Assembly: GCA_020060215.1 (NCBI GenBank)
Contig: JAGVAP010000031.1
Coordinates: 1-64,000 of the forward strand
Direction: 5' to 3'
From: Deltaproteobacteria bacterium
Lineage (GTDB): Bacteria; Desulfobacterota; DSM-4660; Desulfatiglandales; HGW-15
Length of the DNA: 64,000 bases
The position numbers and the translations under genes are program-made. The stretch's first letter is position 1; the number at the start of each line of letters is the position of its first letter. The notes under the pieces are model-generated. The model was given only the letters and a program-made list of their open reading frames with translations. It did no database searches and was not told where the DNA came from. Positions 50,110-55,721 of this stretch are shown here, piece by piece.

Positions 50110-50745
50110 ATGAGCGGAAGCATTGCCAAACTCCTGTCGGATTTGAATGAGAAGGAAACCCTGGAACAGGTGAAGCGGGAGCTGGATGGAGGAGCCGACC
50201 CCATGGCGGTCCTTGCGGAGGCCAGGGAAGGGATGAAGATGGTAGGGGAGAGGTTCTCCCAGGGAACCTACTTCATCCCGGAGCTGATCTTCTCCGGGGA
50301 GATCCTCAAGCAGGTCGCAAACATGGTTACCCCTCACTTGAAGTCAGGCCCTGTCGGGGAGTCCAAGAAGCTGGGGAAGGTCGTGGTCGGCACCGTCGAA
50401 GGGGACATCCACGATATCGGCAAGGACATGGTCGTATTCATGCTGGACATCAGCGGGTACGAAGTCATGGACCTGGGCATCAATGTGCCCAAGCAGAAGT
50501 TCGTGGACGCCATCAAGGAGACGGGGAGCAAGGTCGTCGGCCTGAGCGGATTCCTGACCCTCGCCTTCGACGCCATGAAGGAGACCGTCAGTGCGATCGA
50601 GAGCGCCGGTCTGAGATCCAAGGTCAAGATCATGATCGGGGGCGGCCAGATCGACGAGCAGGTCATGAAGTACACCGGTGCCGACGCCTACGGCAGGGAT
50701 GCCATGGAGGCGGTGAAGCTGGCCAACCAATGGTATGGAGGCTAA
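50110..50745 (+). CDS. Corrinoid-binding protein of a methyltransferase system
   Basis: A 211-residue cobalamin carrier of the MtaC/MtbC/MttC/MetH type. The helical cap domain (about 1-90) precedes the Rossmann-like B12 domain with EGDIHDIGKDM (His is the lower axial ligand), GLSGFLTLAFDAM and IGGGQIDEQ, the usual DxHxxG...SxL...GG signature set. It receives a methyl group from a substrate methyltransferase and passes it on. ATG at 50110 behind GGGAGG. Two bases separate it from the MtaA-like gene. Confidence 0.93.
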   Translation: MSGSIAKLLSDLNEKETLEQVKRELDGGADPMAVLAEAREGMKMVGERFSQGTYFIPELIFSGEILKQVANMVTPHLKSGPVGESKKLGKVVVGTVEGDIHDIGKDMVVFMLDISGYEVMDLGINVPKQKFVDAIKETGSKVVGLSGFLTLAFDAMKETVSAIESAGLRSKVKIMIGGGQIDEQVMKYTGADAYGRDAMEAVKLANQWYGG

Positions 50746-50747
50746 CC

Positions 50748-52088
50748 ATGGAAAAGAAATGGCAGGACATGAATCGAGAGGAGAGGCTCGAGGCGCGGTT
50801 CGCGCGATGGATGGCCGGCCCCGGCCTGGAGTTCAAGGACGAGGAGAGCAAGGCCAAGTACCGGAAGAGCATCACCCGCATGAAGGATGCGGTCCAGCTG
50901 AAGAAGACCCCGGACAGGGTCCCCATCCTTCCGTGGGCGACCTTCATGCCCCTTGTCCTTGCAGGCATAAGCCCGAAAGAAGCCATGTATGACGCGGACA
51001 AGCTGACCTCCGCCTTCATGAAGTACCTGACCGAGTACGACCCCGATTTCTACGGCTCGCCGGTCATCATCGCACATGGACCGGCACTGGAGACCCTGGA
51101 CTTCAAGCTCTACAAATGGCCGGGCCACAATCTCCCCGACCAATACGTCTACCAGTGTATGGAAGACGAGTACATGACCTCGGCCGATTACCAGCACTTT
51201 ATCGACGATCCCACCGATTTTTTTCTGAGGGTTTATCTCTCCCGCATTGCCGGCGGGCTCGCGCCCATGAAGATGATCGCCCCCCTTTACAACGTCATCG
51301 AGCTGCCCCCCATTGCCCTCTGGCTGCTGACCATCGGCATCCCCGACGTCCAGGACGCCATGAAGAAACTCCTGGAGGCGGGCCGCCAGACCTTCGAGTT
51401 CGCAGGCAAGATCGGGGCCTTTGACAAGGAGGCCCAGGAAAAGGGGTACGTGCAGTTCACAGGGGGTTTCAGCAAGGCCCCTTATGATTTCCTGGCAGAC
51501 ACCATGAGGGGTACCCGCCCCATGATGGCCGATCTCTACCGATGTCCCGATCTGGTGCTGAAGGCGATTGACCGGATGACCCCCCTCGCCATCAAGACAG
51601 GGCTCGGCGGACCTGAAGTGTCGGGCAATCCCATGGTGTTCATCCCCCTTCACAAGGGCGCAGACGGGTGGATGTCGGACGAGCAGTATCGGCGATTCTA
51701 CTGGCCCTCCCTGAAGGAGCTCATCATGGCCCTGATCGATGAAGGGTGCGTCCCGTTCCTCTTTGCCGAGGGCGGCTTCAATACGCGTCTCGAGTATATC
51801 AACGAGCTGCCCAAGGGCCACTGCATCTGGCTTTTCGACCAGACGGACATGGCCAAGGCAAAGGAGGTCATTGGAAACACCACCTGCATAGCCGGGAACG
51901 TTCCCATCTCCAAGATCATGACCGGGACCCCGGAAGAGGTCAGGCAGGTCTGCAAGACGCTCATCGACACGGCCGGAAAGGGCGGCGGCTATGTCATGTC
52001 CATGGGCTGTGCGGCCGATGAAGGAAAACCGGACACCGTGCACGCCATGATCGATTTCACCAAGGAATACGGGGTGTACAAGAAGTAG
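50748..52088 (+). CDS. Uroporphyrinogen decarboxylase-family corrinoid methyltransferase (MtaA/CmuA-like)
   Basis: A 446-residue URO-D superfamily protein, longer than MtaA (about 340). It has the TIM-barrel features DRVPILPWATFMPLVLAGISPKEAMYD, a central substrate-binding region, GCVPFLFAEGGFNTRLEYI, TCIAGNVPISKIMTGTPEEVRQVCKTLIDTAGKGGGYVMSMGCAADEGKPDTVHAMIDF. The C-terminal zinc ligand region is present in the form GCAADEGKP. In the sister families it transfers methyl groups between a corrinoid protein and CoM, folate or a methoxylated substrate; here the acceptor is probably folate-linked, given a non-methanogen. ATG at 50748 behind GGAGG. Confidence 0.88.
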   Translation: MEKKWQDMNREERLEARFARWMAGPGLEFKDEESKAKYRKSITRMKDAVQLKKTPDRVPILPWATFMPLVLAGISPKEAMYDADKLTSAFMKYLTEYDPDFYGSPVIIAHGPALETLDFKLYKWPGHNLPDQYVYQCMEDEYMTSADYQHFIDDPTDFFLRVYLSRIAGGLAPMKMIAPLYNVIELPPIALWLLTIGIPDVQDAMKKLLEAGRQTFEFAGKIGAFDKEAQEKGYVQFTGGFSKAPYDFLADTMRGTRPMMADLYRCPDLVLKAIDRMTPLAIKTGLGGPEVSGNPMVFIPLHKGADGWMSDEQYRRFYWPSLKELIMALIDEGCVPFLFAEGGFNTRLEYINELPKGHCIWLFDQTDMAKAKEVIGNTTCIAGNVPISKIMTGTPEEVRQVCKTLIDTAGKGGGYVMSMGCAADEGKPDTVHAMIDFTKEYGVYKK

Positions 52089-52307: not shown

Positions 52308-53387
52308 CTATGCAGCCTCCCTGGTAAAGACGCCGCAGTTGCGGGTAAAGGAGATCAGATCCGCCAGCTTCTGCCTGGCGTGACCCTGATCGATCGCGGT
52401 CCTTGCCCGTTCAATGCCTGCCGAAAAATCATCGTCCATCCCTGCGGCGACGAGTGCGGCCGCGGCATTGAGGAGGACCATGTCTCGCTTGGCCCCTTTC
52501 CGGCCTTCCAGGACATCTTTGACGATCTCGGCGTTTTCTTCGGCACTTCCCCCCTTGATCTCTTCGGGTGTCGATCTCTGAAGGCCGTACTGCTCCGGGG
52601 TGATCGTGAACTCCCTGATCTCCCCTCCCTTGAGACGGCAGACCCTGGTGGGACCGCAGATGCTGATTTCGTCAAAGGTCCCCTCCCCATACACCACGAA
52701 GGCCTGTCTGCATCCGAGCCTCTTCAGGACGCGCGCCATCTTCGAGGTCAGCTCCGGCGCATAGACCCCCATGATCTGCGTCTTGGCTCCGGCCGGGTTG
52801 GTCAGCGGACCCAGGAGATTGAACAGGGTGCGGATGCCGATCTCCCTCCTGGCGCCGACAGGGTAATGAATGCCGCTGTAGAAGTGCGGACCGTAAAGGA
52901 AGCCGATGCCGACCTCCCGGATACACCGCTCCAGGCTGGCGGCATTGAGGTCGAGGCTGATCCCCAGGGCCTCGAGCACGTCTGCGCTGCCGCAGTGGCT
53001 GGAGACCGCCCGGTGCCCGTGCTTGGCCACCCTGACCCCGGCCCCTGCAACGACAAAGGCTGTCGCCGTGGATACATTGAAGGTGCAGGTCCCGTCTCCC
53101 CCTGTGCCGCAGGTATCCACGATCGTCTCGTCATCCAGGTTGATCTCGTCACGGTCCATGTTGATCAGGTGATTTCCGATGTCGATCCTCCTCATCCTCG
53201 CCCTGAGGGCGAGTGCTGCGCCGGAGATCTCCTCCACGGTCTCCCCTTTCATCCTCAGCGCGGTGAGAAACGCTCCGATCTGGGACGGCGCGGCCGCCCC
53301 GGTCAGGATCTCGTCCATGGCCATCCCCATCTCCCCTTCCGGGAGATCGGTCCCCCTTACCACCTTTGCAATCGCCTCTTTGATCAT
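52308..53387 (-). CDS. trpD: Anthranilate phosphoribosyltransferase
   Basis: Second step of tryptophan synthesis: anthranilate plus PRPP to phosphoribosylanthranilate. At 359 residues it is full length. The PRPP loop DTCGTGGDGTCTFNVSTATAFVVAGAGV, KHGHRAVSSHCGSADVLEALG (KHGNR in most homologues, His for Asn here) and LLGPLTNPAGAKTQIMGVYAPEL are present. ATG at 53387 behind AAGGAGGG. It is the only trp structural gene in the window and sits directly behind a transcription attenuator. Confidence 0.97.
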   Translation of the reverse strand: MIKEAIAKVVRGTDLPEGEMGMAMDEILTGAAAPSQIGAFLTALRMKGETVEEISGAALALRARMRRIDIGNHLINMDRDEINLDDETIVDTCGTGGDGTCTFNVSTATAFVVAGAGVRVAKHGHRAVSSHCGSADVLEALGISLDLNAASLERCIREVGIGFLYGPHFYSGIHYPVGARREIGIRTLFNLLGPLTNPAGAKTQIMGVYAPELTSKMARVLKRLGCRQAFVVYGEGTFDEISICGPTRVCRLKGGEIREFTITPEQYGLQRSTPEEIKGGSAEENAEIVKDVLEGRKGAKRDMVLLNAAAALVAAGMDDDFSAGIERARTAIDQGHARQKLADLISFTRNCGVFTREAA

Positions 53388-53454
53388 TGTCGCCCTCCTT
53401 TTTCGCGTTCTTACTTCGGTGAACCTTCTTCCGGTGCCGAGTGCGCCTCCCGGG

Positions 53455-53491
53455 AAAGAGAAAGGCCGCGGGTCTGATTCGACCCGCGGCC
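53455..53491 (-). terminator. trp attenuator terminator (3:4 hairpin)
   Basis: GGCCGCGGGTC, loop GAATCA, GACCCGCGGCC followed by TTTCTCTTTC on the minus strand: a perfect 11-bp stem about 70 bases before trpD. Confidence 0.8.
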
Positions 53492-53510
53492 TCCGGATGA
53501 AAACGAGAAA

Positions 53511-53540
53511 ACCGTGGGTCGCCAGGAGCGAGCCCACGGT
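53511..53540 (-). promoter_or_regulatory. trp leader hairpin alternative to the antiterminator (1:2 hairpin)
   Basis: ACCGTGGGCTCGC pairs with GCGACCCACGGT. The second arm, GACCCACGG, can instead pair with CCGCGGGTC of the terminator's first arm, giving a 2:3 antiterminator with one mismatch. Confidence 0.65.
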
Positions 53541-53587
53541 TTCTTCTATTTTACGGCGCTAAGCCGGTCTTAGTGGACCCATCTCCT

Positions 53588-53653
53588 TCAGGGGACGGGC
53601 CACCACCAGCAACAAGGCAAAAAACAGCAATGCACCTCTTCTCGCGTTTCCAT
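53588..53653 (-). CDS. trpL: trp leader peptide with three consecutive Trp codons
   Basis: A 21-codon ORF starting ATG at 53653 (METREEVH...) and ending CCWWWPVP before TGA. Three tandem TGG codons and four Cys codons in 21 positions are far beyond chance. It lies between a strong promoter and a terminator, upstream of trpD. Ribosome stalling at the Trp codons when charged tRNA-Trp is scarce would alter pairing of the downstream leader. The ATG is at, or within a base or two of, the predicted transcription start, so translation may be leaderless or use a downstream GTG at 53635. Confidence 0.8.
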   Translation of the reverse strand: METREEVHCCFLPCCWWWPVP

Positions 53654-53660
53654 AAACAAC

Positions 53661-53690
53661 CTTATAGATCCTTCGATCGGATGCTGTCAA
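53661..53690 (-). promoter_or_regulatory. trpLD promoter
   Basis: TTGACA, 18 bases, TATAAG on the minus strand, immediately ahead of the leader peptide. Confidence 0.7.
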
Positions 53691-53751: not shown

Positions 53752-54975
53752 TCACATCACATCCTTGTCGCTCGATTCGATCGCCTTGTCGATCTCGGCC
53801 CTGAGCTGGGGCGGGAGACCCGGGATGTCCACGCTCAGAAACCCGCGGACGATGGTGGACGTGGCCTCCTCTTCGCTGAGCCCCCTGGACATGAGGTAGT
53901 TGATCTCCTCCTGGGCGATCTTCCCTACCGCCGCCTCGTGCGACATCTCCACACCGTCCACACGCCCCTCCAGCTCGGGGATGGCATGGATGAGGCCGCC
54001 CCTGAGCAGCAACCCCTTGCACTCCAGGTGGGCCTTCACGCCCGGCACCTCTCCCACGAGGTGCCCCCGGGCGATGATTTTCCCGCCGTTGCTGATGGTG
54101 CGGGCCACGATCTCCGCCTTGGCCCCCTCGCTCTTGAGGAAGATCCTTCCGCCGAGGTCATACTCGGCCCCCGGGCTCCCGCTGATGATGCTGTAGAATC
54201 TCGCCACCGCATCCTTGCCCACGAGGTGAGAGGTCGGGTACATCTGGATCGATCGCACGGGCTTCATGCAGATGTAATTGTTCAGGAACAGCCCCCCTTC
54301 CTCCACCCGGGCCACCGAGCGGGGGCGCACCACCATGTCCTCGGCCCAGTTATGGATCATCGTGAAGCTGAGCTTTGCGTTCTTCTTCACGAAAAATTCC
54401 GAGATGCCCACATGGATGCCCTTTCTCATGTGGGGAGAGGTGGAGCAGCCGGTGATGATATGGAGCTCCGACTCTTCTTCGGCGATGATGAGATTGTGCA
54501 CATTCTGCTGCAGCCCTTCCTTGTCCAGATAGAGACAGGCCTGCACCGGATAGATGGACTTGCTGCCGGGGAGGGCTCGGATGACGTAGCCGTCATGCAG
54601 GTTCAATTCAACGGCCGCCGTGAACTTGTCCATGTCCACGTCCACCAGCTTCCAGTAATACTCCTCGATCCAGTCCCTCTGGAGCGCCTCGCGGATGGAG
54701 AGCACCTCGATTCCGGCCTGGTCGCTGTGGCAGTGCACGACGGCGGTATCCTTCTGAAAAAACGTGCCGGCCCGATCCTTCTGGGCCACGTCGAGCCCCG
54801 CCATCACCAGCCGCTTCTGCTCCGACTGCGGCAGATCGCAAAGATCCTCGTCGGCCATATAAGAGTGGGGTACCGGGGCCATGTCGAAATGAGACAGATC
54901 CACATCCGGCCCGATGGCCGGCTTCTTGTCCGCAGCCTTTTTCGCCCTTTCCCGAAGTTCCGCTAAGCCAGGCAT
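53752..54975 (-). CDS. sufB: SufB/SufD family Fe-S cluster scaffold protein (minimal SUF/SMS type)
   Basis: A 407-residue SufB/SufD-family protein. The C-terminal beta-helix has VEEGGLFLNNYICMKP, ARFYSIISGSPGAEYDLGGRIFLKSEGAKAE, ARTISNGGKIIARGHLVGEVPGVKAHLECKGLLL and the conserved EMSHEAAVGKIAQEEINYLMSRGLSEEEAT. It assembles Fe-S clusters together with SufC. In this two-gene arrangement (no SufD, S, E or U) it corresponds to the ancestral SmsCB-like system of archaea and anaerobes. ATG at 54975 overlaps the sufC end by 13 bases. Confidence 0.93.
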   Translation of the reverse strand: MPGLAELRERAKKAADKKPAIGPDVDLSHFDMAPVPHSYMADEDLCDLPQSEQKRLVMAGLDVAQKDRAGTFFQKDTAVVHCHSDQAGIEVLSIREALQRDWIEEYYWKLVDVDMDKFTAAVELNLHDGYVIRALPGSKSIYPVQACLYLDKEGLQQNVHNLIIAEEESELHIITGCSTSPHMRKGIHVGISEFFVKKNAKLSFTMIHNWAEDMVVRPRSVARVEEGGLFLNNYICMKPVRSIQMYPTSHLVGKDAVARFYSIISGSPGAEYDLGGRIFLKSEGAKAEIVARTISNGGKIIARGHLVGEVPGVKAHLECKGLLLRGGLIHAIPELEGRVDGVEMSHEAAVGKIAQEEINYLMSRGLSEEEATSTIVRGFLSVDIPGLPPQLRAEIDKAIESSDKDVM

Positions 54976-55721
54976 CGCACGCACTCCTCGTATCCGGATT
55001 GGCTGATGCAGGTCAGGATCTCGGCCGGATTGCTGACACAGCTCAGCATGCCGTTGTAGAGGACCTGCCCCTTGTCCGCTGCCACGTAGTCGAGTATGTA
55101 GCCCGTGTGGGTGATGATCAGCCCCATCTTGGTCCTCTCCATCTTCTTCTGCATCTTGGACTTGTCGTTCCTGGCAAAGCTCATGTCCTTCTGGAGCAGG
55201 GAAGCGATGGTCCTGCCGACCAGGTGGATGTTCTCCATATCCACGCCCGACTCGGGTTCATCGAAGAGCATCAGGTCCGGCTGCTGCGCCATGAGCTGGA
55301 GCAGCTCGGACCGCTTGATCTCCCCCCCTGAGAACCCGGCATTCACGTCGCGGTCGAGGAAATCCTTGAAGTTGACCTTCTCCGCGAGCCCCTCCGGATC
55401 CGCCTTTCCACCGGAACAGATCCCCACCATCTGTCTCGTCTTCAGGCCGTTGATGGTGGGGGGCCGCTGATAGGACATGCCGATGCCCAGTCTGGCCCGC
55501 TCGTCGATGGGCGCGAAGGTGATATCCTCGCCCTTGAAGCCGATCTTCCCCCCGGTCACCCTGTATTGGGGATATCCCATGATGGTCATGAGCAGAGACG
55601 TCTTGCCGGATCCGTTGGGTCCGAACAGGACATGGGTCTCACCGGGTTTGATCTCCAGATCGATGTGCTGGAGGATCACCTTGTCCGCAAGTTCCACCCT
55701 GAGATCTTCGATCTGCAGCAT
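54963..55721 (-). CDS. sufC: SufC-family Fe-S assembly ATPase
   Basis: A 252-residue ABC-type ATPase: Walker A GPNGSGKTS, signature FSGGEIKRSELLQL, Walker B LMLFDEPESGVD, H-loop THTGY. ATP-driven dimerisation reshapes the SufB scaffold for cluster assembly. It contains a small insert (SFARNDKSKMQKKMERTKM, about 180-200) relative to E. coli SufC. First gene of the two-gene operon. Confidence 0.94.
   Translation of the reverse strand: MLQIEDLRVELADKVILQHIDLEIKPGETHVLFGPNGSGKTSLLMTIMGYPQYRVTGGKIGFKGEDITFAPIDERARLGIGMSYQRPPTINGLKTRQMVGICSGGKADPEGLAEKVNFKDFLDRDVNAGFSGGEIKRSELLQLMAQQPDLMLFDEPESGVDMENIHLVGRTIASLLQKDMSFARNDKSKMQKKMERTKMGLIITHTGYILDYVAADKGQVLYNGMLSCVSNPAEILTCISQSGYEECVRCLA

Follow-up and report, generated by a model that had tools for sequence, protein, structure and literature searches.

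The usual transcriptional attenuator has a single terminator, placed at its end, and one of the attenuators considered here belongs to a drug-resistance methylase gene, erm(K). The following descriptions are taken from the available parts of the cited reports. The his attenuator alternates between AB/CD/EF and BC/DE pairings, with uridines after EF (PMC10989985), and its extra hairpin has been argued to reduce basal read-through (PMC1183508). Two adjacent Rho-independent terminators are described for erm(K) (PMC4335068), and the rimP-leader has a second tandem terminator with a potential antiterminator (PMC2965389). The tandem attenuators of mgtCBR answer different signals and contain stem-loops unlike intrinsic terminators (PMC3641672). 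A three-hairpin form is described for ilvBNC of C. glutamicum (PMC11857589), and the trpL transcript of Sinorhizobium meliloti starts directly with the leader-peptide ATG and is leaderless (PMC7298713). A search of titles and the beginnings of abstracts, with subscription journals mostly outside its range, gave no two-terminator trp attenuator and no trp attenuation in the phylum studied here. Comparative work on proteobacterial attenuators may touch on a two-terminator trp design.

The locus lies in a window of 64,000 nucleotides, the whole stretch of deltaproteobacterial DNA that was analysed. The promoter, a 21-codon leader ORF containing three consecutive Trp codons (WWW), two hairpins and a lone trpD were all found, on the minus strand, where the sequence-only reading had placed them (Table 1). 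The ribosome-type trp attenuator layout that it proposed was also recovered: the short leader ORF has successive codons for tryptophan, the amino acid made by the pathway, and the helices 1:2, 2:3 and 3:4 exclude one another, the control codons lying in strand 1. The first hairpin (T1, AACCGTGGG...CCCACGGTT, 53541-53510) lies about 60 nt past the Trp codons and has a tail to 53500, and the second (T2, GGCCGCGGGTC...GACCCGCGGCC, 53491-53464) is followed by a U-rich tail to 53455. By our own count the eight bases after the two stems contain 5 and 6 T. Hairpin and U tail thus sit before the structural gene and termination is predicted; the mechanical consensus scan listed no terminator in the window and neither promoter nor terminator at the leader, the promoter being absent because the scan rule demands a final T in the -10 element. 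The leader of the window folded at -99.7 kcal/mol compared with -71.7 ± 4.7 kcal/mol for shuffled sequences (z -6.0), and the corresponding z for the leader of its sister locus, L001, was -7.2. Rfam covariance models gave no matches to the window at the gathering score, including the trp leader (Trp_leader) and T-box, and on 53400-53720 matches up to E 10 were to low-scoring unrelated families only, with no trp leader or T-box among them. The Rfam trp leader was likewise absent at the gathering score from nine other loci.

Table 1. Positions of the leader elements and trpD in the window
Feature	Position	Strand	Evidence
Promoter, TTGACA (53690-53685), 18 nt, TATAAG (53666-53661)	53661..53690	minus	letters read
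Leader peptide ORF, 21 codons, METREEVHCCFLPCCWWWPVP then stop	53588..53653	minus	ORF and translation
Three Trp control codons, overlapping strand 1	53600..53608	minus	letters read
Strand 1, GGUGGCCCGUC, holds the last Trp codons	53594..53604	minus	1:2 pairs kept and covarying in the alignment A4
Strand 2, GAUGGGUCCACU; partner strand 1 or 3	53572..53583	minus	covariation, folding
Strand 3, ACCGUGGGCUCGCU, T1 5' arm; partner strand 2 or 4	53527..53540	minus	covariation, folding
Strand 4, GGCGACCCACGGU, T1 3' arm; partner strand 3 or 5	53511..53523	minus	covariation
T1 U-rich tail, UUUUCUCGUUUU	53500..53511	minus	folding of truncated transcripts
Strand 5, GGCCGCGGGUC, T2 5' arm; partner strand 4 or 6	53481..53491	minus	covariation, folding
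Strand 6, GACCCGCGGCC, T2 3' arm	53464..53474	minus	covariation, folding
T2 U-rich tail, UUUCUCUUU	53455..53463	minus	folding of truncated transcripts
AAGGAGG upstream of trpD	53394..53400	minus	letters read
trpD, anthranilate phosphoribosyltransferase (ATG 53387)	52308..53387	minus	TIGR01245, E 1.6e-118; PF00591, E 2e-90

Strand 1, which carries the Trp codons, pairs with strand 2 (GGGTCCAC). The sequence-only reading had noticed that the Trp codons could pair with a nearer sequence, GGGTCCACTA, and took this for an extra switch element; the pairing does matter, as the true 1:2 step of the attenuator and not as an addition to it. The hairpin that it called 1:2 is T1 (3:4), U-tailed and terminator-like, and the helices that it numbered 2:3 and 3:4 are real but belong to a chain of six strands, where they are 4:5 and 5:6. 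The true 2:3, in which GGGTCCAC pairs with GTGGGCTC, was overlooked at first and covaries strongly. In the window 2:3 joins GGGUCCAC to GUGGGCUC through 8 pairs, two of them G-U, and 4:5 joins CGACCCACGG to CCGCGGGUCG with 9 of 10 positions paired and one A.C mismatch in the middle of the helix. An alternative four-strand version would make T1 the 1:2 pause hairpin and anti-antiterminator, 4:5 the antiterminator and T2 the sole terminator, with the Trp codons 60 nt away. All three helices of this version exist, but it is very improbable given that GGGTCCAC is the partner both of the strand carrying the Trp codons and of the 5' arm of T1, both pairings covarying strongly, and that at least four T occur in the eight bases behind T1 in 95 of 100 aligned leaders. 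The window element is instead regarded as probably a ribosome-mediated trp attenuator with two intrinsic terminators and a six-strand alternating chain.

When truncated transcripts were folded with strand 1 masked, 2:3 was the minimum free energy structure until strand 4 appeared; with strand 4 present, equilibrium folding preferred T1 even under masking. As T1 is the more stable at equilibrium once strand 4 has been made, antitermination must be kinetic, and kinetic competition of this sort is described for E. coli trp in the available part of one report (PMC1183508). The 5' end, the course of folding, the stopping of transcription at both hairpins and the tryptophan response are predictions from this layout, in which the relay would run 1:2, 2:3, 3:4 (T1), 4:5 and 5:6 (T2) and translation of the leader peptide would probably begin at a leaderless 5' end. 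With charged tRNA-Trp in good supply, the ribosome would clear the WWW codons and finish translation of the leader, 1:2 would pair (or the ribosome would sit on strand 2) and T1 would form, and any polymerase that escaped T1 would encounter T2. When tryptophan is scarce the ribosome would stall at the Trp codons and hide strand 1, so that strand 2 would pair with strand 3 and block T1; strand 4, freed by 2:3, would then pair with strand 5 and block T2, allowing the polymerase to proceed into trpD.

The distribution of the element was determined using a covariance model (R1) constructed from the seven lone-trpD leaders (those of the window and six relatives, see below) and the terminated structure only (1:2, 3:4 and 5:6). 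At a threshold of E <= 0.01, R1 matched 240 of the 395 relatives, and 110 among the matches listed (L038-L147, E 8e-10 or better) were studied. By best blastp match to five reference proteins, the downstream gene was trpE in 64, trpD in 18, DAHP synthase in 12, TrpB-like in 9, ADH synthase in 1 and unresolved in 6; two of these six then resolved as trpE and trpD, which places 106 of the 110 in aromatic-gene classes. The remaining four were L044, L058, L062 (at a contig end) and L147, which is probably a false match and was the only one of the 110 in which a W-containing leader ORF was not found. A further alternative holds that a WWW ORF stands by chance ahead of two unremarkable terminators that serve the gene upstream, and is favoured by the purely sequence-based nature of the case for an attenuator; the recurrence of WWW leader peptides with alternative pairings before aromatic pathway genes in many genomes renders it barely conceivable.

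R1 itself selects for two hairpins, so its matches were not taken to show that two terminators are universal among the leaders, and trpE loci were sampled without it. Both trpE samples were composed of best-scoring matches and are not random. Within the 30 best-scoring trpE loci of the relatives, 27 had a sense R1 match just upstream at E <= 1e-11, two had no upstream DNA and one had no element; a mechanical scan, in which some gene starts were mis-set, gave at least two U-tailed hairpins in 20 of the 30. The phylum-wide draw gave 30 loci, two of them already in hand, and among the 28 tested R1 matched 16 in the sense direction at E <= 1e-4, with 6 of the 16 reaching E <= 1e-11; these leaders overlap in part with the 110 studied matches. 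The same scan gave at least two U-tailed hairpins in 13 of the 28, one in 9 and none in 6, counts that include some unrelated hairpins. The two-terminator design is therefore widespread and not universal, and the phylum draw includes trpE leaders with a single terminator (such as L178) or with none. Fourteen of 114 R1 matches at E <= 1e-7 in the loci were second, antisense or flanking matches. Some of these read the same palindromes in antisense and others mark a genuine divergent leader, and weak R1 matches can therefore be spurious.

Several loci have features of their own. A divergent one-terminator attenuator with a Phe/Tyr/Trp-rich leader peptide lies upstream of the trpE leader on the opposite strand in L164 (900-1270), L152 (960-1270), L160, L167, L168, L165, L177, L155 and L171; the peptide of L165, translated by hand, reads MKNNQSWQNFFFYYWGRGLPGD followed by a stop. 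The ORF behind the divergent attenuator of L164 and L177 has shikimate kinase as its best-matching family, with scores that do not reach the NCBIfam cut-offs. A leader very near the lone-trpD type in L044 (1135-1613, minus strand) precedes no trp gene; it is followed by a 93-aa ORF with two CxxC pairs, which had no Pfam or NCBIfam matches at E 0.001 and is possibly a new small protein under Trp control. The leader of L058 (1-1336, minus strand) is an orphan followed by small ORFs, and a search of the available downstream DNA with the five reference aromatic enzymes found none of them. The DAHP synthase leaders of L143, L145 and L146 combine the two-hairpin plan with mixed Phe/Tyr/Trp codons (FYFYYGWYY, YYFWYFF and WWFYFYY) and may perhaps serve general aromatic sensing.

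The trpD of the window stands alone, with no other trp gene adjoining it. The next gene downstream (50730-52088) is weakly MtaA/CmuA-like and runs in the opposite direction, and the upstream gene on the same strand, which ends at 53752, is SufB-family by a match below curated cut-offs. This gene and a SufC-like gene form a pair (53752-55721 together) just upstream of the lone trpD, in an order identical in L001. The nearest trpD, 83% identical, is that of L001 (Deltaproteobacteria bacterium HGW-Deltaproteobacteria-15), in which leader and gene order are those of the window. Every part of the leader is retained in L011, L012, L033, L034 and L036, whose trpD is 62-69% identical, and L001 and these five relatives share with the window the promoter, WWW, 1:2, T1 and T2. 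In 15 other loci with upstream DNA, inspected by eye (L007, L008, L013, L015, L016, L018, L022, L023, L025, L026, L029, L030, L032, L035 and L037), trpD is preceded by a trpG-like 3' end; L009 has no upstream DNA. An apparent remnant of the trpG C-terminus, also seen by eye, lies between attenuator and trpD in L034 (1381-1500), and the lone-trpD form may thus have arisen through deletion of the trpE and trpG that followed the leader. In genome G001 a second trpD (51% identity) adjoins trpE as well as trpG- and trpC-like ORFs (these by eye) and has its own leader match (G001:C91). In a TrpD tree of 40 hand-chosen proteins (19 lone and 21 operon copies), the window TrpD belongs to a starred clade whose five rows are all lone TrpDs (window, L006, L011, L012 and L047). 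The lone label requires 7 changes on this tree, of which starred branches force at least 3; parts of the tree are unsure owing to long branches.

The alternative pairings were compared in an alignment (A4) of 100 leaders, one from the window and 99 from the 110 loci studied, with L137-L147 left out. The parts of the element, their conservation and their covariation are read directly from these sequences. The alternation described for his as AB/CD/EF against BC/DE is present as two states: state A (1:2, 3:4 and 5:6), which was built into the model, and state B (2:3 and 4:5), which is absent from the model structure. State A had 92.3% of cells paired with strong covariation in an alignment that had been fitted to it. 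State B had 85.0% of cells paired, compared with 79.4 when shuffled and 35-53 with the partners slid; its covariation was 0.242 compared with 0.166 ± 0.006 (none of 500 shuffles as high), and 139 cells were double-changed compared with 64.5 when shuffled. Taken alone, 2:3 gave strong covariation (0.314 compared with 0.197 when shuffled), its 6 double-changed pairs being not unusual (264 of 500 shuffles). Covariation of 4:5 alone was weaker, 0.183 compared with 0.142, and exceeded all 500 shuffles, its outer pairs being formed in 52-58% of the cells.

Duplex energies were calculated for 77 representatives below 75% identity, using 2000 permutations, and like the shuffles these leave the kinship among leaders in place. 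A leader's own 2:3 duplex gave -18.8 kcal/mol compared with -14.4 between leaders, and its own 4:5 duplex -16.9 compared with -15.0 kcal/mol, neither difference being reached in any permutation. The control duplexes 2:5 and 1:3 showed no within-leader excess among the 77. A small excess was obtained for 3:6 (-15.1 compared with -14.3, 0 of 2000 permutations) and a smaller one for 4:6 (9 of 2000), that of 3:6 being expected because the T1 and T2 hairpins resemble each other. Against the five nearest leaders only, the own 2:3 was better in 68 of 77 and the own 4:5 in 48 of 77 (p 0.008). Support for 4:5 is clear but weaker than that for 2:3.

The two hairpins have a common core. GGUGG is the reading of strand 1 in 89 of the 100 leaders and GUGGG that of strand 3 in 64 and of strand 5 in 56, and CCCAC is the commonest reading of strands 2, 4 and 6 (17, 32 and 29 of 100). 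With odd strands GUGG-like and even strands complementary, the CCGUGGG core looks like an echo of the Trp codons handed down the chain. The core was also considered as a generic terminator and rejected: the exact pattern GCCGTGGN{3,25}CCACGGC was rare in seven of the eight genomes searched, with 4, 4, 1, 2, 3, 1, 0 and 51 (G107) forward sites compared with 1, 7, 0, 0, 2, 0, 2 and 20 for the reversed pattern. This result speaks only against a common terminator, because many true leaders are missed by the pattern (for example the ACCGTGGG form of T1).

The role of the second terminator bears on how much of the chain is switched. At least four T occur in the eight bases after T2 in all 100 aligned leaders, and T tails follow both hairpins in the 95 noted above, whereas in a his-type arrangement the last hairpin is the sole terminator. 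The distance from the end of the model match to the first trpE start codon had a median of 13 nt and was at most 60 nt in 57 of 64 loci, a few of these starts being mis-set. Such a short gap leaves little room for a promoter, and T2 should therefore be switchable, since the operon would stay silent behind a T2 that could not open. The 4:5 pairing would be the simplest means of opening T2 and would arise unaided once 2:3 frees strand 4. The alternative is a classical four-strand trp attenuator (1:2, 2:3 and T1) in which T2 is a back-up terminator or a stabiliser of the transcript end and the 4:5 match is a by-product of the CCGTGGG core present in both hairpins. The better support for 2:3, the within-leader excess of 3:6 that alike hairpins would yield, the occurrence of one-terminator trp leaders in the phylum and the presence of the core in one-terminator divergent leaders all agree with a back-up T2. 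However, a constitutive T2 would shut the operon under starvation too, with little promoter space in the median 13 nt to relieve this, and the T1 and T2 cores sometimes change together, as in G025 (L174), where both contain GCAGG. Seven of the eight genomes contain 0-4 exact GCCGTGG hairpins each (51 in G107), which does not indicate a general terminator habit, and 4:5 covaries above every shuffle. A back-up T2 is accordingly considered unlikely, and a T2 switched through 4:5 is preferred.

The leader ATG at 53653 is 7 nt downstream of TATAAG, the place where, as the sequence-only reading had observed, transcription should begin. Promoter-like sites were picked blind to the ATG in 110 leaders (window and L038-L146), of which 106 with a Trp codon and an in-frame ATG were evaluated and 4 were dropped. 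An in-frame ATG was located 6-8 nt past the -10 in 50 of the 106, including all seven closest leaders, compared with a maximum of 9 leaders per three-base interval elsewhere, clear of this peak; where a leader offered several in-frame ATGs, counting the one closest to 7 gave the peak some advantage. From this spacing the leader mRNA is likely to be leaderless. A second group of 13 leaders, with the ATG at 27-30 nt past the -10, is presumably leadered. The cysteine codons of the window leader had raised the question of dual sensing, which was dropped because most leaders carry no Cys ahead of the Trp run: in the 15 codons before it, 72 of 106 leaders have none, 26 have one, 7 have two, and only the window has four.

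On balance we lean towards reading these leaders as an undescribed attenuator class across this deltaproteobacterial phylum, controlling an aromatic regulon (trpE, lone trpD, TrpB-like and DAHP synthase), in which one ribosome stalled on a leaderless leader mRNA would switch two serial terminators by a strand relay whose odd strands repeat GUGG and whose even strands are complementary. If this is true the leader would act as a double lock, leaking very little and released in a single all-or-none step, and conservation of the two-terminator form predicts less leak and a sharper response. The role of a strand relay, so far argued from his, becomes testable by natural covariation in about a hundred sequences, and R1 provides a ready covariance model for annotating aromatic amino acid control in the phylum. 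Leaderless leader peptides would extend past the Corynebacterium and Sinorhizobium cases given in the available parts of their reports (PMC11857589, PMC7298713).

The element resembles E. coli trpL in the adjacent Trp codons in strand 1, the alternative helices 1:2, 2:3 and 3:4 and a terminator, predicted here, before trp genes. It differs from trpL in its two U-tailed hairpins linked by a fourth alternative helix, 4:5, its probable leaderless start, the absence of an Rfam match and the lone trpD downstream. As far as the available accounts go, the his attenuator likewise has six strands that alternate between the same two sets of pairings, with an additional hairpin ahead of the terminator, but it has His codons and uridines described after EF only, while here the middle hairpin is U-tailed as well. 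The twin adjacent terminators, predicted here, are shared with erm(K), as described in the part available, with amino acid control through Trp codons here instead. The rimP-leader is similar in its tandem terminators and different in that the available text does not present it as a leader-peptide system (PMC2965389). A single terminator hairpin before trpE(G) is depicted for S. meliloti trpL in the available part of its report, and because that transcript starts at the ATG a leaderless trp leader is not new in itself. The six-strand relay (his), twin terminators (erm(K)) and a leaderless trp leader (Sinorhizobium) are thus already known singly; what is new is their predicted union, in which amino acid sensing, two U-tailed hairpins, a conserved relay and a probable leaderless start would be combined ahead of several aromatic genes.
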